Source: Arthrobacter sp. MYb229 (GTDB lineage: Bacteria; Actinomycetota; Actinomycetes; Actinomycetales; Micrococcaceae). From it: a stretch of DNA of 64,000 nt. Position 1 is the first letter of the stretch. Each line of letters begins with the position of its first letter. Shown here piece by piece: positions 77 through 12,292 of the stretch. Below the pieces are notes generated by a model that worked only from the letters and a program-made list of their open reading frames with translations, ran no database searches and was not told the DNA's origin. The stretch lies in assembly GCF_002975405.1 (NCBI RefSeq), contig NZ_PCPS01000005.1, forward strand, positions 124,001-188,000. Reading direction: 5' to 3'. A program made the position numbers and the translations under genes.

Positions 77-2278
77 CTAGTTGCTGCTGGCCTGCAGCAC
101 CAATTCTGCGTTGCCGGTCAGCGGATCCGAGCCGGCATCGCCCTGGTCGGTGTACGTGGCGTTGAAGACTGCCGACAGGTCATCGACTTCCGGGTCATGG
201 CCTTCTGGCACCGTGGTGACGAAGGAGCCCGTGCAGCCGCTCGTGGTCGTCTGCGGGTGGCCGTGCGTGTGGTGGCCCAAGATGTAGCTCACTTCCACGC
301 GCGCACAGTCAACCGGCTGGTCGTCGGTGACCTTGACCTCGTAGTTGACGGTATCTCCGAACGTGAAGTCCTGGCCCGCGACCGGAGTAATGAATTCAAC
401 AACCGGCTGCTGGTTGCCGACCTCGATTTCCACCTCTGCCGAGCTGTGGCGGCCACGGTGCTTGCCACCGATATCGGTGACCGTCAGGGTGGCGAGGTAG
501 GTGCCGTTCTCCTCGTAGGTATGGCTTGGATTGGCCTTGGTGGAATCCACCGTGCCGTCCGAGTCGAAGTCCCAGGCGTAGCGCAGCTTGTCCCCGTCGG
601 CATCGCTGGTGCCTTCGCTGGAAAGCTCCACGGTCAGCGGGGCGGTGCCCACGGTCGGGGTGCCTGTTGCGACGGAGATCGGGCTGTGGTTGCCGCCCTC
701 GCCGATGAAGTCGATGCGCGCAACCTGGGCTTCCTCATTCTCGCCGAAGTAGCCGTTGCCGTATTCGAGCACGTACAGCGCGCCGTTCGGGCCGAATTCC
801 ATATCGATCGGGTTTTCGGTCACCAAGGTGTCGACCACGCTCTCAATCGCAACTGACCCATCAGCATCAAGGCTCATGGCCTTGAGGTAATCGCGGGTCC
901 ATTCGTAGAAGAGCGCCTTGCCGTCGAAGTAGGACGGCCAAGCCACGGGATTGGCACCGCGCGTGGCTGCCTTGTCGAACTCATAGGCGGGGCCGGCCAT
1001 CGGGCCGATGCCGCCGGTGCCCAGTTCCGGGAACTGCTCCGAGAGCCCGTAGCTGTACCAGAGGTCGGCGTCGGCCACCGGTGGCAGCTCTCTCAGGCCG
1101 GTGTTGTTCGGCGACTCGTTCACCGGAGCGGCGCAATCGAAAGGCTCTCCGGAAGTCTCGGTAGCGAAGTCGTAGTCGTTATACGGCAGATTCTCGGTGG
1201 CGCAGTACGGCCAGCCGTAGTTGCCAGGTTCGGTGGCCACAAGCCATTTGCCGGTACCGGCCGGGCCGCGGTCCGGGTCGGCGCTGCTCGCATCCGGGGA
1301 GTAGTCCCCGATGTAGAGTTCGCCGGTGCGCTGGTTCACGTCCACACGGAACGGGTTGCGCAGGCCCATCACATAGATCTCCGGGCGGGCCCCGTCGGTG
1401 CCCTGCTCGAAGAGGTTCCCCTCGGGGATGCTGTAGCCGCCGCCATCGGTCGGGGTAATGCGCAGCACCTTGCCGCGCAGGTCGTTGGTGTTGGCCGAGG
1501 TGCGCTGGGCGTCGTAGCCGGGGTTGGAGTCCGGGCGCTCGTCGATTGGCGAGTAGCCGCCGGAGACGAACGGGTTGGTGTCATCGCCCGTTGAGAGGTA
1601 CAAGTTGCCCGCGGCATCGAAGACGATATCGCCGCCGACATGGCAGCATAGGCCGCGGGAGGCCTCGACATCGATGATCTGCTGCTCGCTGGCCAAATCG
1701 ATGCTCTTACCGTCGAACTGGAATCGGGAGAGCCTGCTGACGCCATCAAAAGGGGCGAAATCCTCCGCGGTGCCGCTGGTCGGGGCGTCGCCCTCATTGA
1801 CGTCCGGCGTTGCGGGGTCGTCCACCGGGGTGTCCAGCGGCGGGGCGTAGTAGAGGTAGACCCAGTTGTTCCCCTCGGTCCCGAACTCCGGGTCCAGCGC
1901 GATGCTCTGCAGCCCTTCCTCGTCGTGCCGGTAGACCTCCAGCTCGGCGGCTTGGCTGTTGATGCCGGTCTCCGCGTCGTTGAGCCAGACCTCGCCGCCG
2001 CGCGTGGTGTGCAGGACGCTGCCGTCGGGCAGCACCGCGAGGTCCATGGGCTCGCCCGGGGTGTCGTTGAGCGTCACCTTCTGGAAGGCGGAGTCCGCGG
2101 GAGCCTGGGCGGCGGGAGATTTCGGCTGGGCTTGGGCCGGCATGCCAGCCAGGGCCGAAGCCAGCACCGCCGCCGTGGCTAGCCCCGCTCCGGTGCGTAG
2201 CGCGCTTCGCTTGAAAGAATGTGCGGTAGCCGCACGCCGCGGGGCACTGCCCGCCATCTTCGTTCGGTTGACTATCAT
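77..2278 (-). CDS. Secreted PQQ-dependent sugar dehydrogenase with PKD domain
   Basis: The 733-residue protein has an N-terminal signal region (basic start, hydrophobic stretch at about 28-50, AQA-type cleavage site), so it should act outside the membrane. Residues about 65-530 form a GSDH-type six-bladed propeller; the visible marks are VLPDGSVLHTTRGG, the CCHVGGDI stretch, LYLSTGDD, LRGKVLRI and VMGLRNPFRVDV. This is the family of soluble PQQ aldose dehydrogenases. Residues about 535-615 are a PKD domain (YAWDFDSDG, then TYEENGTY), and a further beta-rich domain follows. ATG at 2278 is chosen because AAGGAAGTG lies at good distance upstream. It is transcribed in the same direction as the Ebo genes but separated from them by about 200 nt and a hairpin. 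The substrate is unknown; the PKD domain suggests contact with polysaccharide or the cell surface. Confidence 0.88.
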   Translation of the reverse strand: MIVNRTKMAGSAPRRAATAHSFKRSALRTGAGLATAAVLASALAGMPAQAQPKSPAAQAPADSAFQKVTLNDTPGEPMDLAVLPDGSVLHTTRGGEVWLNDAETGINSQAAELEVYRHDEEGLQSIALDPEFGTEGNNWVYLYYAPPLDTPVDDPATPDVNEGDAPTSGTAEDFAPFDGVSRLSRFQFDGKSIDLASEQQIIDVEASRGLCCHVGGDIVFDAAGNLYLSTGDDTNPFVSGGYSPIDERPDSNPGYDAQRTSANTNDLRGKVLRITPTDGGGYSIPEGNLFEQGTDGARPEIYVMGLRNPFRVDVNQRTGELYIGDYSPDASSADPDRGPAGTGKWLVATEPGNYGWPYCATENLPYNDYDFATETSGEPFDCAAPVNESPNNTGLRELPPVADADLWYSYGLSEQFPELGTGGIGPMAGPAYEFDKAATRGANPVAWPSYFDGKALFYEWTRDYLKAMSLDADGSVAIESVVDTLVTENPIDMEFGPNGALYVLEYGNGYFGENEEAQVARIDFIGEGGNHSPISVATGTPTVGTAPLTVELSSEGTSDADGDKLRYAWDFDSDGTVDSTKANPSHTYEENGTYLATLTVTDIGGKHRGRHSSAEVEIEVGNQQPVVEFITPVAGQDFTFGDTVNYEVKVTDDQPVDCARVEVSYILGHHTHGHPQTTTSGCTGSFVTTVPEGHDPEVDDLSAVFNATYTDQGDAGSDPLTGNAELVLQASSN

Positions 2279-2487: not shown

Positions 2488-3924
2488 TTAGGTTGCGGAA
2501 ACCGAGGATCCCTTACTCCACAGCTCCGCGTCCAGCCCCTGCGTCTGCAGGATCAGAGATTTCACCGCCGCGGCCGGCACCTGGCGTCCCGCGTCCACCA
2601 GCGACTCGACGACGGCAGGGACCCTGGCGTCCGAGCAGAGGATCAGCGGCGTGCCCTCCGCGCTGTCCGGTAGCCGGCCGTGCGTCCCGCGCACACAAGT
2701 GGGGTCCAACGGCACGGTATTCATGGCGTAGCGCAGCCCGAGCTTCTTCTTCACCAGGTTCAGCCCCGCCTTGGATTTCGCCAGCCGGTCGGCGGGATCG
2801 AAGAACAGTTCCGCCGGGTCATAGCCTGGCTTGCGGTGGATGTCGACGCCGCGGGCGTACTCCGGGGCGCGCTCATCATCGAGCCAGAAGTAGTAGGTGA
2901 ACCAGGCTCCGGGTTCGGCGACCACCACGAGTTCCCCGGCGCGCTCGTGGTCCAGTCCATAGGCCGCCTGCGCGGCCCGATCGAGCACCTCGTCCACGCC
3001 GTCCAGGCCGCGCAACACCGCGGCGACCCGTGCGATGTCGGCTTCGTCCCGCACATACACGTGCGCCGCCTGGTGGTCGGCGACGGCGAAGGCGCGCGAA
3101 GTCCAGGGGTCCAGCTGCTCGCGCCCGTCCTGCACGTAGACTTCCAGCAACCCCGCTCGGCGCAGCGCCCGGTTGATGTCCACCGGCTTGCTTGCCTCCT
3201 CGATCCCGTATTCGGCCACCACCACCACGGTGTAGCCAAGTCCCTCTGCATCATCGAGCAGCGGGGCCAGCACCGCGTCCAGAGCTGCCGCGGCGCGGTC
3301 GGCCTGCGGCGAGCGCGGACCGAATCTTTGCAGGTCGTAGTCCAGGTGCGGCACATAGGCGGTGAGCAGATCCGGGGCCCGCGTGCGCATCACGTGCCGC
3401 GTGGAGTCCACGATCCAGCGGCTGGAGCCTAGCGCCGCCGTCGGGCCCCAGTACTGGAACAGCGGGAACTCGCCGTAGGCGCCCACCAGCTCCTTGTGCA
3501 GCTCGGGCGGGCGCATGTAGGCGTCCGGGGACTTGCGCCCGTCGGCATGGTAGATGGGCCGCGGGGTGATCGTTATATCGGTGCTCATGCCCATCGCGTA
3601 CCACCAGCAGATATTCGCGGACGTGTAGGAGGCCTCCTGCCGGCGGGCGGTCTCCCAGATGGTCTCTCCGCCGACCAGCCGGTTGTGCTGGCGCCACAGG
3701 TATACCTCGCCGAGCTCACGGAAGTACCAGCCGTTGCCGACAATTCCATGCTGCGCCGGAGACAATCCGGTGAGCATGGTGGACTGCACCGAGCAGGTGA
3801 CCGCGGGCAGCACGGTGCCCAGCTGGGCGGACCAGCCCTTGTTGGCCAGCCGGGACAGACGCGGCATCTTGGCCAGCGCCCGGGAGGTCAGTCCGACGAC
3901 GTTCAGTAGCAATACGGGTTTCAC
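2488..3924 (-). CDS. EboF-like alkaline phosphatase/nucleotide pyrophosphatase-family protein
   Basis: The 478-residue protein belongs to the type I phosphodiesterase/nucleotide pyrophosphatase branch of the alkaline phosphatase superfamily. The motif PAVTCSVQSTMLTG at about residues 40-53 carries the expected nucleophile threonine. Further metal-site marks are GWYFRE, the HLDYDLQRFGP stretch and a late HGRLP (about 425). No signal peptide is apparent, so it may be cytoplasmic. It starts with GTG after an AGGAGAA Shine-Dalgarno. It is the last gene of a tight minus-strand run, 48 nt after the eboE-like gene. In cyanobacterial and other Ebo operons the phosphodiesterase is EboF; the family match and neighbours support this name, but the substrate is unknown. 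Confidence 0.8.
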   Translation of the reverse strand: MKPVLLLNVVGLTSRALAKMPRLSRLANKGWSAQLGTVLPAVTCSVQSTMLTGLSPAQHGIVGNGWYFRELGEVYLWRQHNRLVGGETIWETARRQEASYTSANICWWYAMGMSTDITITPRPIYHADGRKSPDAYMRPPELHKELVGAYGEFPLFQYWGPTAALGSSRWIVDSTRHVMRTRAPDLLTAYVPHLDYDLQRFGPRSPQADRAAAALDAVLAPLLDDAEGLGYTVVVVAEYGIEEASKPVDINRALRRAGLLEVYVQDGREQLDPWTSRAFAVADHQAAHVYVRDEADIARVAAVLRGLDGVDEVLDRAAQAAYGLDHERAGELVVVAEPGAWFTYYFWLDDERAPEYARGVDIHRKPGYDPAELFFDPADRLAKSKAGLNLVKKKLGLRYAMNTVPLDPTCVRGTHGRLPDSAEGTPLILCSDARVPAVVESLVDAGRQVPAAAVKSLILQTQGLDAELWSKGSSVSAT

Positions 3925-3972
3925 GGTTCTCCTGTGCGGGTCGATGGTTCAGTTCAGAGATTTCGGCGCTGG

Positions 3973-5121
3973 TCAACGGGCGCGTACCGGTGCCAGCAGA
4001 TTGTCTCTGGCCCAGCAAAGCTCCGCGGCGACGCCGTCAACGATTCCGGGATCATTCCCGGCACCCGCCCCGCCGTCCGCGCCGGGAAGCACGCTCCAGG
4101 TGTAGGTTTCCACGTCCAAATGCACTTGCCCGGCATAGTCCAGGCGCGCGACCTCGGCGACGGTGCGCCGCAGGACCTCGGAGGTCGCCTGCAAGGGCGC
4201 CGCCGGCACGTGGTGCAACGGGATGTGGAAATGCACGCGCCATGGCCCGTCCCCGGGCAGCTCGGCGAGCGCCGTGTCCAGGTCGTCGGCGGGCAGCACG
4301 CCGCCCGGTGCCCACTCGCGGACCTGGTGCAGGTACTTCGGCTCGACGAACCGGGTCAGCGCCGCGCGGGCCACCGGGTCGCGCGGGTCCGCCACGTGCA
4401 GGGCCGCGGACGCCTGGACCTTGACCACGCGCAGCCCGGCATCTTGGATCTCGGCGATCGCCGATGCCGGGTCCGCGAAGGAGACGGCCAGATGGCAGGC
4501 GTCCACGCAGACCCCGACGAACTCGGGGTCGATCCCCCGGCCCAGGCGCGCCCCGAGCCAGCCGACGACGTCGGAGATCGTGTCCAGCACGCAGCCGGGC
4601 TCCGGTTCGATCGCCACGCGCACGGTCCTTCCGGTGCGCTCCTGCAGCTGGCGCAACCGCGTGCCCAGCTCGGCGAAGGCCGCGGTGGCGGCGGCATCGT
4701 CCTGCGCGGTCCACGGATCCCGCCAGGCCAGCGGCAGCGTGGAGATCGACCCGACCTCGCCGGCCGGCATCAGGTCGGCGAGGATCTGGGCGCACTGGAG
4801 CGTGTATTCCAGGCGGTCGCGTTCGGCCCAGGTAGGCAGGTAGACTGCGTGCTTGACGATCTCGTTGTGGAATCCCCCGTAGGGGAACGCGTTGACGGTG
4901 TGCAGGGCCAGGCCCTCGGCGGTTAGCACCGCACGCAGGGCGTCGCGGTCCTCCGAGCTGGCGGCGAGCCGGGCCGCGAGCCCGGCCGGAATCCAGAGTC
5001 CGACGCCGAGCGTGTCCAGCGAGGCGGCGCGGCGGATCGGTCCGGCGTATTCGCGCAGCTGGGTGATCACCCCGTCCAGATCCTCGGCCGGGTGGACGTT
5101 GGTGCAGTAGGACAGGCGCAT
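3973..5121 (-). CDS. eboE: EboE-like TIM-barrel metabolite traffic protein
   Basis: The 382-residue protein starts with RLSYCTNVHPAED, typical of EboE, a xylose-isomerase/AP-endonuclease-2-like TIM barrel. Other family marks are TVNAFPYGGFH (about 89), a VAIEPEPGCVLDT block (about 171), VGVCVDACHLAV (about 205), FHIPLHH (about 300) and HLDVETYTWS near the C terminus. Together these carry the His/Glu/Asp residues expected of a divalent-metal site. In cyanobacteria the Ebo proteins are linked to export of the scytonemin precursor to the periplasm; the reaction of EboE is not known. Its ATG overlaps the TGA of the upstream TatD gene (TGATG), so the two are probably translationally coupled. Confidence 0.85.
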   Translation of the reverse strand: MRLSYCTNVHPAEDLDGVITQLREYAGPIRRAASLDTLGVGLWIPAGLAARLAASSEDRDALRAVLTAEGLALHTVNAFPYGGFHNEIVKHAVYLPTWAERDRLEYTLQCAQILADLMPAGEVGSISTLPLAWRDPWTAQDDAAATAAFAELGTRLRQLQERTGRTVRVAIEPEPGCVLDTISDVVGWLGARLGRGIDPEFVGVCVDACHLAVSFADPASAIAEIQDAGLRVVKVQASAALHVADPRDPVARAALTRFVEPKYLHQVREWAPGGVLPADDLDTALAELPGDGPWRVHFHIPLHHVPAAPLQATSEVLRRTVAEVARLDYAGQVHLDVETYTWSVLPGADGGAGAGNDPGIVDGVAAELCWARDNLLAPVRAR

Positions 5122-5999
5122 CAGGCACGCGCCCCGCGCAGCACGGAGTTGCCTTCGAACCCGGCGGCCGGATCGGGGAAGCCCGCGGCCTCGAATCCGG
5201 GCAGCGGATCCAGGATCAGCTGGCCGCTCTGCCCGTAGAATTCCACGGGGTTGCGCCAGAATACCTGGTCCACGTCGTCGGCGCTGAAGCCGGCGGCGAG
5301 CATCGCGTCGGCGGTGCGGCGGGTCTTCAGCGGATCGGAGCGGCCCCAGTCCGCGGCCGAGTTCACCAGGACCCGTTCGGTGCCATAGCGCTGCAGCAGC
5401 GCGACCATGCGCGTCTCGTCCATCTTCGTGTCCGGATATATTGAAAAGCCCATCCAGGCCCCGGCGTCCTTGACGATTTCGATGTTGGTTTCGTTGAGGT
5501 GGTCCACCAGCACGGCCCCTGCGCCGATCCCGGATTCGCGGACCACATCGAGGGTGCGCCGGGTGCCGGCGAGTTTCTCCCGGTGCGGGGTGTGCACCAG
5601 AGCCGGCAGCCGGTGCGCGCGGGCCAGCTCGAGCTGCGCCGCAAACGCGTGGTCCTCGGCGGGAGTCATCGAGTCGTAGCCGATCTCACCGACCGCTACC
5701 ACCCCCTCCTTCGCCAGGTAGCGCGGCAGCTCCTCGAGCACCGGCAGGCACCTCGGGTCGTTGGCTTCCTTGGGGTTCAGCGCGATGGTGGCGTGGTGCC
5801 GGATGCCGAACTGGGCGGCGCGGAAACGCTCCCAGCCCAGCAGCGAGTCGAAGTAGTCCAGGAAGGAGGCGACGCTGGTGCGCGGCTGCCCCAGCCAGAA
5901 GGCGGGCTCCACAAGGGCGCGAACGCCGGCGGCGTACATGGCCTCGTAGTCGTTCGTGGTGCGGCTGCTCATGTGAATGTGTGGGTCGAAGATGCGCAT
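5121..5999 (-). CDS. eboB: EboB-like TatD-family metal-dependent hydrolase
   Basis: The 292-residue amidohydrolase-fold protein opens with DPHIHMSSR (the HxH metal site). It continues with VGEIGYDS (about 143), LVHTPHREK (about 174), a VDHLNE segment (about 204) and a late VNSAADWGRSDPLKT (about 252) with the metal-binding Asp. TatD relatives are metal-dependent hydrolases; the EboB branch has no defined substrate. It starts 11 nt after the upstream EboA-fusion gene and overlaps the eboE start by one base, so it is firmly inside the operon. Length and motifs look complete. Confidence 0.85.
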   Translation of the reverse strand: MRIFDPHIHMSSRTTNDYEAMYAAGVRALVEPAFWLGQPRTSVASFLDYFDSLLGWERFRAAQFGIRHHATIALNPKEANDPRCLPVLEELPRYLAKEGVVAVGEIGYDSMTPAEDHAFAAQLELARAHRLPALVHTPHREKLAGTRRTLDVVRESGIGAGAVLVDHLNETNIEIVKDAGAWMGFSIYPDTKMDETRMVALLQRYGTERVLVNSAADWGRSDPLKTRRTADAMLAAGFSADDVDQVFWRNPVEFYGQSGQLILDPLPGFEAAGFPDPAAGFEGNSVLRGARA

Positions 6000-6010
6000 G
6001 GTTGTCCTTC

Positions 6011-7516
6011 TTATAACGATGTCGGGTGGTTGGCGGGGCGCGTGAGCAGCGCCAGGTCTTCGGGAATGGGGCGGGACGCGGCCCGCCGCTCGGCGGCGAA
6101 GTCGGCGGCCATCCGGGCGAGCTCCGCATCGGCGCGGACCTGCAGGCCGGTGGCGGCGGCGAGGCTCACACCCATGAACACGAGCTTGAGCACCGCATGC
6201 CGCCAGGCGTGCTGGTCCAGATGTGCGGCGGCAAACGGTCCGACGGCGGCGGCGACCAGCGACGTCTCGTTGCTCCGCAACGCATCGGAGGTCAGCTCCA
6301 GCCCCGTCAGCACGAGGGTGCCGTCGAGCCTCGGCGAGGCCTCCGCCAGGGCCCCGAGGCCGCGCAGCACACCGCGCCGCTCGGCGGAATCGCCGCGGTG
6401 GTAAAGGTCCCGCAGCAGCTGGGTCAGCACCGCTGGCTCCAGGTCGCGGCCGAGCCGGGCGATCAGCCTGGCGCGGGCGTCATCGGCGACGGTGCCGAAG
6501 AGCACCCCGGTCGGATCGGTTCCGGGGCAGCGGGGGGCCCGGCCGACGCTGCGCGGTGCGGTGGCGAAAATCCGGGGCAGGCTGGCGTGGTCGGCGAGGA
6601 CCGCTGTCGTGCTGTCGGCCAGCCAGGCGCCGGCGGTTCGCGCCGGCGCCGACGCGGTCCAGGCGGCGCGCAGGGCGGCCATGCTGCGCTCGGCCAGGCC
6701 CGGGGCGTCCCACGAATGACGCGGCAATTCGACGGCGGCCACGCCCCGGTAGTCCAGTTCCGCCAAGGTGGCGAGGGCCAGCGGGAGGTCCAGGACCCCG
6801 TCGCCGAAGGGCAGGTGCTCGTGGGTGTGCGGGAGCATGTCGTCCAGCTGGACGTTGGCCAGCAGGTCGCCCGCGAGGCGCAGGGCGCCGTCGACTCCGC
6901 CGGGTTCCACCACCACGCAGTGGCCGATGTCCACGGTGAGGCGCAGGGCCCGCGGTTCGCCCAGCTCGCCGTGCAGCCGCAGGGCGTCGGCGACGGTTTC
7001 CACGACCATGCCCGGCTCGGGTTCGATGGCCAGCAGCACGTCCCGGGCCGCGGCGTACTCCACGAGCTCGGCAACGCGAGTGGTCAAGCGCTGCCAGCCG
7101 GTCTGCTCCGTGGCATCTTCGGGGAGGATGCCCGAGAAGAAAGAGACGCATTCGGCGTCCAGCTTGGCGGCGATGTCCACGGCCCGGCGCAGGAATTCGA
7201 GCCTGAGACCAGCGTGCTTGTCCACCAGGGCAGGCCGGTGCTTCTGCCTGGCATCAAGCAGGAACCGGGTGCCGGTCTCCACCACCACGCGCAGACCGTT
7301 CCGGGCCAGCAGGGCGCCGACTTCGTCGAGGCGCTCCTCCAGATCGTCGGCAAAAGGGTCCAGGTGCGGGTGCCCGAGCGTTAGCGCGACGGCGGTGTAG
7401 CCCTGTTCTGCGAGCAGTTCGAGGGCCACCGGCAGCGGATGGTCCGCAAATCCGTTGGTCCCGTAGCCGAGGGCGAAGCGGAACTGGTCATCGGTTAGTG
7501 CTTTTCGGGCGGTCAC
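6011..7516 (-). CDS. Sugar-phosphate isomerase-like TIM barrel fused to EboA domain
   Basis: This 501-residue protein appears to be a fusion. Residues about 1-280 form an AP-endonuclease-2/xylose-isomerase-like barrel: FRFALGYGTNGFADH at the start, VVVETGTRF, SFFSGILP, LAIEPEPGMVVET (about 161), LTVDIGHCVVVEP (about 193) and VAAVELPRHSWD. Residues about 300-500 are helical and resemble EboA-domain proteins: LARLGRDLEPAVLTQLLRDLYHRGD, then LVLTGLELTSDALRSNE, then a WRHAVLKLVFMG segment. EboA is a small protein of unknown function, normally encoded alone. The GTG start overlaps the prenyltransferase stop (GTGA). The N-terminal half also resembles the EboE protein two genes downstream, so the operon encodes two related barrels. 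Confidence 0.82.
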   Translation of the reverse strand: MTARKALTDDQFRFALGYGTNGFADHPLPVALELLAEQGYTAVALTLGHPHLDPFADDLEERLDEVGALLARNGLRVVVETGTRFLLDARQKHRPALVDKHAGLRLEFLRRAVDIAAKLDAECVSFFSGILPEDATEQTGWQRLTTRVAELVEYAAARDVLLAIEPEPGMVVETVADALRLHGELGEPRALRLTVDIGHCVVVEPGGVDGALRLAGDLLANVQLDDMLPHTHEHLPFGDGVLDLPLALATLAELDYRGVAAVELPRHSWDAPGLAERSMAALRAAWTASAPARTAGAWLADSTTAVLADHASLPRIFATAPRSVGRAPRCPGTDPTGVLFGTVADDARARLIARLGRDLEPAVLTQLLRDLYHRGDSAERRGVLRGLGALAEASPRLDGTLVLTGLELTSDALRSNETSLVAAAVGPFAAAHLDQHAWRHAVLKLVFMGVSLAAATGLQVRADAELARMAADFAAERRAASRPIPEDLALLTRPANHPTSL

Positions 7517-8439
7517 GATTCACTGATCTTTCTGGCACTGGTGCGGGCGCGCAGCAGTTTCCCGAGCACATCGATGGAGCCGATTACCGCTCCGGCCCCC
7601 GGGCTGCCGTGGCGCAGTGCGAGCGCCGCCTGCAGCGGGACCATGGAGCGGATGCCGGACTTGGTGGCCTGAAGCGCGTTGCCCGCCGAAGGGTCCTGGG
7701 CCGCACGCCACTGGGCCGTGCCGCAGCGCGTCGCGTAGAGCGCTACGGCGGCCGCGGCGGGCAGGATGCGGCCAAAGAGCGCACGGCTTGGGCCGGCATC
7801 CCGGCTTGGCAGCGCGTTGCCCGGCGCCATAACCCCGGCGAGCACCGCCCCGGAAACCAGGGTGGTCATGGCGGTAGCTCCGGACGCCGTGGCCTTGCTG
7901 GTGCCGTCCACCTCCCCGCGGGAGAGCGCGGTGACGGCCACGGTGTGTCCGCCCATGACGGCGGCGGCGGGCAGCGCCGCTCGGACGGCGCCGGTGCCGG
8001 CGCCCATGAGGACATCCAGCCCGCGGCAGAGCCCCATGGTCAGCGCGCCAGCAGCGGCGTTGCGCTTAGCGGCCAGGTCGTAGGTCCAGATCGAGGCCGC
8101 CAGCGGCAGGCCCAGAAGCAGGGATCGGCGTCCGCCGCCCGCCGCGCTCAGCCCGAGCCCTGCCGCCGTGAGCCCGGCGGCCGCGGACAGGGCGGTTCTG
8201 GGTGCGATCCGGCCCGAGGGGATGGGCCGCTCCGGGCGCTCGGCGGCATCGACCTCGCGGTCGGCGTAGTCGTTCAGCGCCATGCCCGCCGCATAGAGGC
8301 AGGCGCTGGCAGCCGGCAACAGAAGCCGGTGGCCCAGGAGCGGGTGCCCGGCGGCTGCGCCGCCGGCGAGGGTGTCGCCCAGCACGGTCAACACGGCCGG
8401 CGCGCGGACCAATTCGAGGTAGTCGTGGACCCGGCTCAC
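7513..8439 (-). CDS. eboC: EboC-like UbiA-family prenyltransferase (SCO3242 type)
   Basis: An integral membrane prenyltransferase of 308 residues from the GTG at 8439. That start is chosen because it overlaps the preceding stop (GTGA) and begins directly at the family sequence VHDYLELVRAPAVLT. The first Asp-rich motif is NDYADREVDAAERPERP (about 64-80), which binds prenyl diphosphate-Mg2+. The second is near TYDLAAKRN (about 150). About eight Ala/Leu-rich membrane spans follow. The longer reading frame upstream is only the shadow of the inositol-phosphate synthase gene. The Ebo prenyltransferase is thought to attach an isoprenoid to an unknown acceptor; here the likely acceptor is a product of the neighbouring cyclase, which is inference. 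Confidence 0.85.
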   Translation of the reverse strand: MSRVHDYLELVRAPAVLTVLGDTLAGGAAAGHPLLGHRLLLPAASACLYAAGMALNDYADREVDAAERPERPIPSGRIAPRTALSAAAGLTAAGLGLSAAGGGRRSLLLGLPLAASIWTYDLAAKRNAAAGALTMGLCRGLDVLMGAGTGAVRAALPAAAVMGGHTVAVTALSRGEVDGTSKATASGATAMTTLVSGAVLAGVMAPGNALPSRDAGPSRALFGRILPAAAAVALYATRCGTAQWRAAQDPSAGNALQATKSGIRSMVPLQAALALRHGSPGAGAVIGSIDVLGKLLRARTSARKISES

Positions 8440-9719
8440 CGTGCGACGACGCTCTGTGCGACCTGCCCGAAAGACTTGGCGGACGTGGCATCGATCCGGG
8501 CCCCGGCCTCCTGCGCCCAGTCCAGCAGGCGACGGCTCTGCTCGGCAAAGGCGTGCTCCTCGCTGCCCCACGGATCCTTGAAGAAGAAGCCCAGCTCCCC
8601 GATCTGGCCGGTCTCCCCGGCGGCGTCGGCGAGCGCCATGAGGCGTGCCAGATCCAGGATCATGGGTGCGGCCAGCATGGAATCGTAGGCGCTCCACGTG
8701 GTTTGCAGGGTCAGCCGGGAGCCGAGGAAACCCTCCAGGTTAATATGGTCCCAAGCCACCTTGGTCTCGCCGAGGTCTGGAACGTTATCGATATGCAGCG
8801 GGGTGGCGGCGCCGCCGGTGAGAGCCTGCAAGCCCCGGTTCTTGGACTGCAGCTTGCCGGCCACGGCCTCCGGGTCGGCCAGCGTAGCGCCGTCCCCGCC
8901 GCCGAGCAGGTTGGCCCCGGCCCAGGACAGTACGCGCAGCCCGCGGGCGGCGAGCCCGGGAGCCAGCACGGAACGCAGCCAGGTCTGGCCGGTTTTGCCA
9001 TCTTGCCCCGCGGTCGGCAGGCCGCGCTCGGCGGCCAGTCGGGCCAGCGCCGGAACGTTGAGGGCTGGCGAGGGGGTGAAGCAGATGTAGGGCGCTTCGG
9101 CCAGGATCGCCGCGTAGGCGCTCAGCGAGCTTGGCGGCAGGATCGCCCGGGCCGGGTCGTCGAGGGCCTCAAGGAGCAGGTCCAGGTCGTCGAACTCGGG
9201 CAGGTGGTCGATCGGGGCTTCCGTGGAGGCCACGTCGATGACGATCACCCGGTCCAGCTCGTGATCCCGGCGGAACTCGCCGATGTCCCGGGCCAGGCGG
9301 CGGGCGGTCTCTGCCTGCGAAACTCCTATCTGGCCTGGCTGGTAGCCCGGGCAGACGCGCGCATCAACCTCTTCCAGCTCGGCCCGGACCGAGGAAACCA
9401 GATGCTGCGGCAGCATGCCCGCACCGACCAGGTGCTCGACGCGCTTGGCGACCGAGACATCGCTGATATCGTGCCCGCCGATCAGCAGATCTGCGAAGCC
9501 CGGCAGCGGGACGGCGGCGAAGCCCTCCTGGGCTGTCACGCAACCGGTGGCCGGAGCCAGGCCGCCGTTAATCGCCGCGAGCCCGGTGGCCGCCGTCGCC
9601 GCCACCGATCCGCGGGCCCCGACGAGCCAGAGGCCCACCCGCCCCGCTCCGGAACCGCTAGCGGTTCCCCCGTCCGCGGTCGCGGCCTCGTTAATTCCCA
9701 GGTCGGCTGGTATGCCCAC
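8436..9719 (-). CDS. myo-Inositol-1-phosphate synthase family protein
   Basis: The 427-residue protein has an NAD-binding Rossmann entry at LVGARGSVAATAATG (about residues 31-45) and the synthase-family blocks VIVIDVASTEAP, FTPSPALNVPALA, GQDGKTGQTWLRSVLAP (about 238), LSWAGANLLGGGDG, KVAWDHINLEGFLG (about 314) and LTLQTTWSAYDSMLAAPMILDLARL. These match the Inos-1-P synthase family, which converts glucose 6-phosphate to 1L-myo-inositol 1-phosphate with NAD+. The GTG start at 9719 has AAAGGA upstream; an out-of-frame ATG lies 5 nt earlier. It is the first gene of the Ebo-type run and overlaps eboC by 4 nt. Standard actinobacterial ino1 for phosphatidylinositol usually stands apart, so this may be a specialised paralogue. 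Confidence 0.88.
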   Translation of the reverse strand: MGIPADLGINEAATADGGTASGSGAGRVGLWLVGARGSVAATAATGLAAINGGLAPATGCVTAQEGFAAVPLPGFADLLIGGHDISDVSVAKRVEHLVGAGMLPQHLVSSVRAELEEVDARVCPGYQPGQIGVSQAETARRLARDIGEFRRDHELDRVIVIDVASTEAPIDHLPEFDDLDLLLEALDDPARAILPPSSLSAYAAILAEAPYICFTPSPALNVPALARLAAERGLPTAGQDGKTGQTWLRSVLAPGLAARGLRVLSWAGANLLGGGDGATLADPEAVAGKLQSKNRGLQALTGGAATPLHIDNVPDLGETKVAWDHINLEGFLGSRLTLQTTWSAYDSMLAAPMILDLARLMALADAAGETGQIGELGFFFKDPWGSEEHAFAEQSRRLLDWAQEAGARIDATSAKSFGQVAQSVVAR

Positions 9720-9803: not shown

Positions 9804-10760
9804 TCACCGCGTGTAGCAGCTGAGGAACTCGAAGCTGTCCCGGGCGAACTCGGCGGTGGCCGGGGCGAAATCGCGTTCGACCACGTAGTACTTCACGTGG
9901 CTCTGCGCTGCGTCGAGGATGGGAGTCCAGTCGATCTCGCCCTCCCCTACATCGGTCGGCGTGGCGCGCTCGTCCCCGTTGAGCAATCCGTCCTTGATAT
10001 GCAGGAGCTCAATGCGATCGCCGTGCTCCGCGATCAGCTGCACGACATCCACACCGGAGTCGGCCGCCCAGAGCACGTCCAGTTCGAAGGTGACGTACCT
10101 AGGGTTGGTGTACTCGGCCAGCAACTCCCAGGCGCTGGTGAGCTCACCTGTCTCCGGGTGGGGGTACTGGCTGGTGAATTCTCCCTGGTGGTTGTGCACG
10201 AAGATCTTGCCGGTGCCGGACTTCTTGGACTGCTCTCCGAGCCGGTTGAGGGTTTCCGCGGTGGCGAGGGTGTCCTCAAGGCTTCCAATGCCAGGGGAGG
10301 CGGAGCCGCCCGAACCCATGTACTTCTGGCCAACGGTCTTAGCGAACTCGATGGTATCGCCGAAGGTCCCCTCGTCGGTGCTGCCGTGGGAGGTTGGCGC
10401 CTTCAGCCCATACTTGCCGAGCAGGGCGGAAAATTCTTCGGCATTCCGGCCCTCGTAGGTTCCGCCGAAGGGCTCGATGTTTCGATAGCCTATGTCGGCC
10501 AACTCGGCGAGCACGGCCTCGGTCCCAACCTCGTTGCCCCAAGTCAGGTAGCTGAACATCTGGATGGAGATCTTGCTGGCGGGCACGCCCTTACCTGTGC
10601 ACTGCGCCGCAGCGCCGCCTTGTCCGGAGGCGGGGGCCGCAGTAGCCGGCGCCATACCGAAAAGCGCGCCGCTGGCCAAGGCCAGCGAGGCCGTCACCGC
10701 CATACCTCGCGAGACCTTCCGCCGCGCATTCCCCGGCCGATCTTGTTTGCTCTTTGTCAT
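9804..10760 (-). CDS. Secreted sugar phosphate isomerase/epimerase-like TIM barrel
   Basis: The 318-residue protein begins with an arginine-containing export signal (NARRKVSRGM, hydrophobic stretch, TAAPA cleavage site), so it is extracytoplasmic; a Tat route is possible but the motif is imperfect. The mature part is a xylose-isomerase-like barrel: ISIQMFSYLTW (about 63), RNIEPFGGTY, FVHNHQGEF (about 185), TFELDVLWA (about 222), LLHIKDGL (about 248) and YYVVERD near the end. ATG 10760 is chosen for its GAGGAGAAG ribosome site. It precedes the inositol-phosphate synthase gene by 84 nt on the same strand and may share its transcript. A paralogue lies at 12441-13373. The substrate is unknown; extracellular barrels of this type can act on 3-keto-glycosides in other bacteria. 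Confidence 0.85.
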   Translation of the reverse strand: MTKSKQDRPGNARRKVSRGMAVTASLALASGALFGMAPATAAPASGQGGAAAQCTGKGVPASKISIQMFSYLTWGNEVGTEAVLAELADIGYRNIEPFGGTYEGRNAEEFSALLGKYGLKAPTSHGSTDEGTFGDTIEFAKTVGQKYMGSGGSASPGIGSLEDTLATAETLNRLGEQSKKSGTGKIFVHNHQGEFTSQYPHPETGELTSAWELLAEYTNPRYVTFELDVLWAADSGVDVVQLIAEHGDRIELLHIKDGLLNGDERATPTDVGEGEIDWTPILDAAQSHVKYYVVERDFAPATAEFARDSFEFLSCYTR

Positions 10761-10866
10761 GGGCTTCTCCTCGCGTAGTGGCACGGTTGCACACCGCCGG
10801 CAGAGCGTCCAAAAGCGCATCACTCGGCAATATGAGATGTCGGTCACATGAACCTAACATGACTAA

Positions 10867-11092: not shown

Positions 11093-12292
11093 ATGAATGA
11101 CATAAGCAACTTCAGCGGCCTCAGCGGCTCAGGTGCCAGCGAACTATTCCAGATCCTCCGCGACGGACGAGCGCGCACGCGCACGGAGCTCTCGGAGATG
11201 ATGGGCTTGGCCCGCTCCACGATCACCCTGCGCATCGAAGCGCTTATGGCCCTCGGGCTCGTGGGATTCGTGGACGACGCCACCTCCACCGGCGGGCGCC
11301 CTTCCTCACGCATTGCACTGAACGCAGGCAGCAAGGTGGTTCTCGGCATCGACATCGGCGCATCCCACGTGCGCGTGGCACTCACCGACCTGCTCGGGCA
11401 TCGATTGCGTGAGGACGGGCGGAATATCGAGGTATCCCAGGGGCCAAATGTCGTCCTCGAAGCCGCCGTCGAGTTGGGCAAGGAGCTGCTGGAGGCGAGC
11501 GATCACGCGCTGACCGACCTGCTGGCGGTGGGCGTCGGGATCCCCGGTCCGGTAGAACACCGCACCGGCCGCCCGTTCAACCCGCCCATCATGCCCGGCT
11601 GGAACGGATTCGACGTTCCGGGGCTGCTGCAGGACCACTTCCATGTCCCGGTGCTCGTCGACAACGACGTGAACATCATGGCCCTGGGCGAGCGCAATGT
11701 CTCGTGGCCGGAGGTGGACAACATGCTCTTCGTGAAGATCGCCACGGGCATCGGTTCGGGCCTTATCTCGAGCGGGAGACTGCAGCGGGGAGCCGACGGC
11801 GTCGCCGGCGATATCGGGCACATCCGCGTGCATAACGGCTCGGGCATCACCTGCCACTGCGGAAACCTGGACTGCCTCGAAGCGGTCGCCTCGGGACCCG
11901 CCGTGGCCAAGAAGCTCAACGCCCTCGGCCTGGACGCAAATTCCAGTGAAGACGTGGTCGCGCTCGTCAAATCGGGCAACGCCGAGGCCGTGCACGCCGT
12001 CCGCCAAGCCGGCCGCGATGTGGGCGAGGTCCTCTCCGCCTGCGTCAGCCTCATCAACCCATCCGTCATCGTCATCGGGGGCTCGATGACACTCACCGGC
12101 GAGCACTTCATCGCCGGGATACGCGAAGTGGTCTACTCGCGGGCCATCCCGGTCGCAACCCAGCACCTGCGGATCGTGCAGTCCGGAGCCGGACAGGACG
12201 CCGGTGTGCTCGGCGCCAGCATGCTGGCCATCCACCACGCCATGTCGCCGAAGCATATCGATGCCCTCGTGAATGGGCTCAAGGGAGACTAG
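11093..12292 (+). CDS. ROK-family transcriptional repressor
   Basis: The 399-residue protein has an N-terminal winged helix (ELFQILRDGRARTRTELSEMMGLARSTITLRIEAL, residues about 14-50). A ROK sugar-kinase-like domain follows: VLGIDIGASHVRVALTD (about 83), VGIPGPVEHRTG (about 147), VLVDNDVN, the ATGIGSGLIS phosphate loop and the CHCGNLDCLEAV zinc motif (about 262). Such proteins repress sugar-uptake or catabolic genes and respond to a sugar or sugar phosphate. It stands between two secreted isomerase-like genes, one divergent and one co-directional, and likely controls both. No Shine-Dalgarno is visible close to the ATG, so translation may be leaderless. Confidence 0.88.
   Translation: MNDISNFSGLSGSGASELFQILRDGRARTRTELSEMMGLARSTITLRIEALMALGLVGFVDDATSTGGRPSSRIALNAGSKVVLGIDIGASHVRVALTDLLGHRLREDGRNIEVSQGPNVVLEAAVELGKELLEASDHALTDLLAVGVGIPGPVEHRTGRPFNPPIMPGWNGFDVPGLLQDHFHVPVLVDNDVNIMALGERNVSWPEVDNMLFVKIATGIGSGLISSGRLQRGADGVAGDIGHIRVHNGSGITCHCGNLDCLEAVASGPAVAKKLNALGLDANSSEDVVALVKSGNAEAVHAVRQAGRDVGEVLSACVSLINPSVIVIGGSMTLTGEHFIAGIREVVYSRAIPVATQHLRIVQSGAGQDAGVLGASMLAIHHAMSPKHIDALVNGLKGD

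Follow-up and report, generated by a model that had tools for sequence, protein, structure and literature searches.

Ebo gene clusters, which are found in many phyla and also in the plastids of algae, are required to export a scytonemin precursor, yet their product has been unknown since their description. In the clusters of type ABCDEF, EboD is thought to use sedoheptulose-7-phosphate (PMC5133447), and Klicki et al. (2018) suggested that ebo provides a carrier in the form of a cyclitol lipid (PMC6282210). Yurchenko et al. (2016) noted actinobacterial fusions of a TIM barrel with EboA, not a myo-inositol-1-phosphate synthase (MIPS), and the word inositol occurs 0 times in their article (PMC5133447). 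In Streptomyces coelicolor, the myo-inositol phosphate synthase SCO3243 and the putative transferase SCO3242 are both counted as genes of the calcium-dependent antibiotic (CDA) cluster (PMC3610822). They are annotated separately, and the literature found contains no link between them and ebo. In the same literature, with subscription journals mostly outside its coverage, MIPS is not mentioned in ebo clusters, and prenylated inositol or cyclitol appears solely as the Ebo papers' own proposal.

Here we describe an ebo-type operon in a 64,000-nucleotide stretch from Arthrobacter sp. MYb229 (contig NZ_PCPS01000005.1, positions 124,001–188,000 of the forward strand; referred to as the window). As in type ABCDEF, homologues of EboA, EboB, EboC, EboE and EboF are encoded in one tight operon (PMC5133447; PMC6282210). 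In contrast to that type, EboD is missing and a MIPS is found instead, an extra TIM barrel is present that is often fused to EboA, and EboC belongs to the diverged SCO3242 subfamily. From the sequence comparisons, an exchange of EboD for MIPS is well supported. On balance, we favor the interpretation that the operon represents an Ebo variant found across the phylum, with inositol-1-phosphate chemistry taking over from EboD and supplying EboC, so that a prenylated cyclitol lipid results that possibly serves as an export carrier.

Gene content of the operon and absence of EboD

Six ebo-type genes were confirmed by profile matches at positions 2488–9719 of the window, all on the minus strand and with the identities given in a preliminary description of the locus (EboF, EboE, EboB, fused EboA, EboC and MIPS). 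In the direction of transcription, the Ebo-type MIPS (8436..9719), matching PF07994 with 170.7 bits and PF01658 with 94.1 bits, both over cut-off, is followed by the EboC-type UbiA prenyltransferase of the SCO3242 family (7513..8439; NF045897, 322.8 bits, cut-off 260) and by a xylose-isomerase-like TIM barrel fused to a C-terminal EboA domain (6011..7516; PF01261, 126.5 bits; NF035938, 138.5 bits, cut-off 50). The TatD-like metal-dependent hydrolase EboB (5121..5999; PF01026), the TIM-barrel protein EboE (3973..5121; NF035939, 412 bits, cut-off 250) and EboF, a protein of the alkaline phosphatase superfamily (2488..3924; PF01663, 212.7 bits), complete the set.

The start of EboC had to be corrected. 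Its reading frame is open upstream to 8697, yet the family models begin only at residue 92, and with a GTG start at 8439 the gene shares 4 bp (GTGA) with the end of MIPS, including its stop codon, and encodes a protein of 308 amino acids. EboC thus most likely starts at GTG 8439 rather than at 8697, and we assign the gene to 7513–8439. The genes for EboC and TIM-EboA likewise share 4 bp, those for EboB and EboE 1 bp, and the gap between EboE and EboF measures 48 bp. Because of these overlaps and the tight spacing, the six genes very likely form one operon. The arrangement is not a product of chance, since an identical gene order is seen in dozens of genera and in public annotation.

The genome (3,998,291 bases in 23 contigs, rated 100% complete) contains only one gene of PF01761, the EboD/AroB superfamily. 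It is located on contig C1, away from the cluster, and the best similarity to EboD in the genome (E 9.6e-31) is at the level of AroB. Annotated ebo clusters of Azospirillum, Deinococcus, Aureibacter and Roseivivax provided a reference set of four true EboD proteins (44–59% identical to the first of the set). A tblastn search with these four proteins gave no match in any of the fetched loci with an ebo-type MIPS, and in 297 Actinomycetes genomes the best match reached 135 bits at about 36% identity, an ordinary AroB-like level. An EboD hidden elsewhere in the genome is ruled out by the PF01761 count, the similarity search and tblastn. The absence of EboD asserted in the preliminary description thus holds for the cluster, for the remaining genome and for the 297 sampled genomes, and searches of the genome and the loci revealed no eboD that co-occurs with the cluster.

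The cluster MIPS and its co-inheritance with EboE

The nearest solved structures to the cluster MIPS are those of Ino1 from Archaeoglobus fulgidus (1u1i, 3qvs; 190 bits), with similarity over the full length. Lys289, Lys293, Lys320, Lys381, Asn270, Asp276 and Asp346 correspond to Lys274, Lys278, Lys306, Lys367, Asn255, Asp261 and Asp332 of the archaeal enzyme, and these seven residues are invariant in 18 homologues of the ebo type. For Lys278 and Lys367 of A. fulgidus, Ala substitutions exist in deposited variants. With every catalytic residue that we checked retained, synthesis of inositol-1-phosphate is the simplest prediction for the cluster MIPS. A. fulgidus Ino1 itself is presumably a stand-alone enzyme of primary metabolism and not part of an ebo cluster.

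PF07994 scores actinobacterial Ino1 poorly, and a Pfam search alone gave one copy in the genome. The assumption that the cluster MIPS is the sole Ino1 was rejected when a query with a real Ino1 located a separate gene on contig C12 (G000:C12:130476-131546). This housekeeping Ino1 is 80% identical to other actinobacterial Ino1 proteins, and the cluster gene was a distant second match. The cluster MIPS shares 30% identity with actinobacterial Ino1 and falls outside the Ino1 clade, in which identity between genera is about 80%. In the phylogenetic tree, both types are split by very long branches, so that the phylogeny supports a separate, very distant clade for the cluster synthase; the nearest relatives of the window come from Zhihengliuella and Arthrobacter.

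The class sample of 297 Actinomycetes genomes was evaluated for ebo-type MIPS (E below 1e-80) and EboE (over the model cut-off). MIPS was present in 70 genomes and EboE in 76; each of the 70 MIPS genomes also has EboE, six genomes have EboE only and 221 have neither gene. The suggested co-occurrence of an ino1 paralogue with ebo genes is therefore strongly confirmed (70/70). The sample contains 74 MIPS genes, 69 of which have EboE at a distance of at most 7 kb (median 4.5 kb). The other five are located on a contig different from that of EboE, and some of these exceptions may be contig breaks. The Fisher test (p = 1.5e-61) ignores shared ancestry and hence shows only that the linkage is very strong. 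In other actinobacterial classes, all four genomes with a MIPS of the type at 48% identity or more carry EboE about 4.5 kb away, and EboE occurs in none of the 23 genomes with a MIPS type of 35–42% identity. Among named genomes, the cluster occurs for example in Zhihengliuella, Arthrobacter, Cellulosimicrobium, Agromyces, Amycolatopsis, Streptomyces, Nocardiopsis and several species of Mycobacterium. Rather than being peculiar to this genome, the MIPS variant is how ebo ordinarily occurs in Actinomycetota.

The six genomes with EboE but no MIPS were considered as candidates for EboD-type actinobacteria. In five of them EboE is diverged (32–35%) and no other ebo gene lies alongside. In two of these loci (L063, L064) the neighbors are genes for a transketolase/E1, an acyltransferase, a ketopantoate-reductase-like protein or an aldehyde dehydrogenase. 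Since the diverged EboE proteins (L062–L066) are not accompanied by other ebo genes, the EboE model also catches another family. The remaining genome of the six, G028, carries a genuine ebo cluster.

Copies of MIPS from Micromonospora and Lentzea are nested inside the ebo clade of the tree, where 'no ebo' labels partly reflect contig ends. A nested group from Micromonospora (L203, L205, L208, L211) has an ebo-type MIPS and no ebo genes. In L203, the gene is located together with condensation, AMP-binding, carrier-protein and decarboxylase genes, which may serve the synthesis of a natural product that contains inositol. This context is consistent with a MIPS lineage that supplies a cyclitol building block to specialized metabolism. 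A second MIPS clade (L068–L071; 36–38% identical) was also observed. In each of its loci a TIM-barrel gene lies no more than a few kb away, and L068 has an additional methyltransferase-like gene; no ebo genes were found around these loci.

A putative prenylated cyclitol and alternative explanations

We propose that a dedicated MIPS, distinct from the housekeeping enzyme, cyclizes glucose-6-phosphate to a cyclitol of the myo-inositol-1-phosphate type in the place of EboD. The results support the earlier assignment of MIPS as the cyclase of the cluster. Subsequently, the epimerase-like TIM barrel and/or EboE might adjust the ring by epimerization or isomerization, and EboC, a membrane enzyme of the UbiA type, would attach a prenyl chain to the cyclitol. 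In some lineages, this chain could come from a prenyl-diphosphate synthase whose gene neighbors the cluster. The prenylated cyclitol (phosphate) lipid would most plausibly move metabolites across the membrane, like the product of EboD-type ebo clusters. The nature of the EboC substrate, the order of the steps, the lipid product and its role as a carrier are predictions, as is everything that follows the MIPS reaction.

With the EboC model NF035940, the prenyltransferase scores 153.6 bits, below the cut-off of 250, and it passes the sister model NF045897 ('SCO3242 family'). Its NDxxDxxxD motif is invariant in 38 sequences. An AlphaFold2 model with a predicted local distance difference test (pLDDT) score of 92.8 matches all-helical membrane structures of the UbiA fold. 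In sequence as well as in fold, the best match in the PDB is digeranylgeranylglyceryl phosphate (DGGGP) synthase (7bpu, 6m31), at 17–18% identity; the next fold matches are UbiA from A. fulgidus and then a membrane phosphoribosyltransferase.

A polyprenyl-diphosphate synthase gene is located about 2 kb left of the window (G000:C19:121531-122598; L111:15531-16598). A search for such synthases in 22 genomes gave 85 matches, and in six genomes one lies within 5 kb of the cluster: our own, G117, G290 and G205 (just upstream of MIPS), as well as G146 and G201. In the last two, the distance to EboE is about 1.6 kb and EboF fits between. About 0.3 such cases are expected by chance, as estimated from gene density. 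Because the six genomes belong to four families, they represent roughly four independent cases. The acceptor of DGGGP synthase in archaea is a prenyl glycerol phosphate, and the neighboring prenyl synthase together with the likeness of EboC to this enzyme fits prenylation of a polyol phosphate.

The remaining proteins were compared with those of EboD-type clusters, relative to which the epimerase-like TIM barrel is an extra part. In Streptomyces, TIM barrel and EboA are separate genes. The model of the fused protein (pLDDT 91.9) places the TIM domain nearest to UlaE-type 3-epimerases in a fold search that listed only TIM-barrel matches and did not identify the helical EboA domain. EboB is 51–59% identical to EboB of the EboD-type clusters of Azospirillum, Aureibacter and Roseivivax and 37% identical to that of Deinococcus, and its HxH motif and other His and acidic residues of the TatD type are conserved. 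Identities to the counterparts in EboD-type clusters amount to 29–41% for EboE and 44–54% for EboF. EboB and EboF are close orthologs of their EboD-type counterparts. EboC, with 25–30% identity to the EboC proteins of four such clusters, is the most diverged. This would be expected if the acceptor had changed along with the cyclase, but the divergence could also reflect the general drift of a membrane protein.

The Streptomyces plasmids L236, L244 and L245 carry the same seven-gene block within apparent loci for specialized metabolites. On the S. camelliae plasmid, the block is surrounded by a ScyD/ScyE-family protein, an aromatic prenyltransferase and a multicopper oxidase, resembling the scytonemin arrangement. 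In that arrangement, oxidation takes place outside the cytoplasm. The specialized-metabolite setting of the cassette in Streptomyces parallels that of ebo in the scytonemin locus (PMC6282210).

Several points weigh against the proposed pathway. In EboF, Gln199, Glu238 and Tyr239 replace His, Asp and His of phosphonoacetate hydrolase and are invariant in six aligned EboF proteins (including L233–L237). The Thr nucleophile is retained; the first Asp is not conserved. Because several metal ligands of the superfamily are lost, a hydrolase role of EboF is uncertain, its function as a processing phosphodiesterase appears doubtful, and it may be no ordinary two-metal phosphodiesterase. We know of no activity for EboA. 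The sugar phosphates from which MIPS and EboD start are believed to differ, and the MIPS product retains its phosphate; the two cluster types may therefore make different molecules. Furthermore, most loci with an ebo-type MIPS lack an adjacent prenyl synthase, and one genome (G028) contains a true ebo cluster without an adjacent MIPS (L067, G028:C2:416000-434000). There, a Gfo/Idh oxidoreductase and a sugar-binding protein/sugar importer stand upstream of EboC instead, and the cyclitol may be imported. In the literature found, no biochemistry on these actinobacterial cluster proteins is described, and the only EboC-family enzymes tested in vitro farnesylate an aromatic compound, 8-hydroxyquinoline-2-carboxylic acid (8-HQA; PMC9235831).

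The favored reading can be extended to an undescribed lipid class, a prenyl ether of inositol (phosphate) made via MIPS, EboC and a partner prenyl synthase, which would act as a carrier exporting diverse metabolites. The rule for all phyla would then be 'any cyclitol plus a prenyl chain', and one slot would be open to unrelated cyclases. We put this extension forward only tentatively.

Among the alternatives, it is conceivable, though unlikely, that the product of the MIPS-type enzyme is not myo-inositol-1-phosphate but another cyclitol, formed for instance from another sugar phosphate, and that a different cyclitol lipid results. Five-membered rings are made by Ari2, and the distant relatives of the cluster enzyme include a five-membered-cyclitol-phosphate synthase (6k96). 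In addition, identity between the MIPS family and actinobacterial Ino1 reaches only about 30%, and sedoheptulose-7-phosphate is the presumed substrate of EboD itself (PMC5133447). However, the cluster MIPS is far closer to archaeal Ino1, with 190 bits against 33 bits for 6k96, and all four catalytic lysines are kept together with the other residues.

There is also a small chance that MIPS merely raises the inositol supply and is co-located for regulation, while EboC prenylates an unrelated, aromatic substrate. The farnesylation of 8-HQA by an EboC-type enzyme and the aromatic prenyltransferase that adjoins the cluster in S. camelliae would suit this explanation. It is at odds with the 4-bp overlap and joint inheritance of MIPS and eboC, with the housekeeping Ino1 that is already present, and with the structural proximity of EboC to an enzyme prenylating a polyol phosphate.

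A catabolic cluster for the breakdown of imported sugars or inositols, with MIPS and the TIM barrels included, is improbable. It is suggested by recurrent neighbors: besides ROK regulators, these comprise a sugar ABC importer, a levoglucosan-dehydrogenase-like Gfo/Idh enzyme (351 bits, below the cut-off of 650) and a TIM barrel related to 2-hydroxy-3-keto-glucal hydratase, which form a module at L111:9433-15521. This module recurs beside the ebo-type MIPS in about a quarter to a third of the named loci, but the six genes persist without it at the others. Moreover, MIPS and the prenyltransferase are biosynthetic, and in Streptomyces the cassette is part of specialized-metabolite loci.

Finally, it is extremely improbable that the cluster MIPS is the organism's inositol source for phosphatidylinositol and mycothiol and lies beside the ebo genes by coincidence, since this is refuted for the present genome by its normal Ino1 and, although the housekeeping Ino1 is missing in four genomes of the same order that contain the ebo MIPS (G117, G205, G240, G290), relatives from their families lack both genes, so that Ino1 was lost independently of ebo, and MIPS in the class sample is confined to EboE genomes, with few and nested exceptions among the named genomes.

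Optional parts of the locus and implications

Three further genes accompany the operon. A second TIM barrel, weakly IolE-like (9804..10847, minus strand; weak matches to PF01261 and TIGR04379), lies 84 bp upstream of MIPS on the same strand and is probably the first gene of the operon in this genome. It also adjoins the cluster in Zhihengliuella and Arthrobacter sp. H5 (L153, L155, L157). On the downstream side, a protein with a GSDH beta-propeller and a PKD domain (77..2278, minus strand; PF07995 and PKD) is encoded, a neighbor found again in 40 of 80 named loci. Like the second TIM barrel, it is an optional part. A ROK-family protein with a winged helix (11093..12292, plus strand; PF00480), which is divergent from the operon and recurs in 28 of the 80 loci, is a candidate regulator.

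Two unrelated cyclitol-forming enzymes in one slot, with the rest of the cluster kept, provide independent evidence for a cyclitol core of the ebo product. In actinobacteria, this cyclitol should be inositol, which makes isotope labeling and tracing possible in tractable hosts such as Streptomyces. Thus, MIPS in the place of EboD points to a ring sugar alcohol linked to a lipid as the product of ebo clusters, and this product may become easier to hunt by lipidomics.

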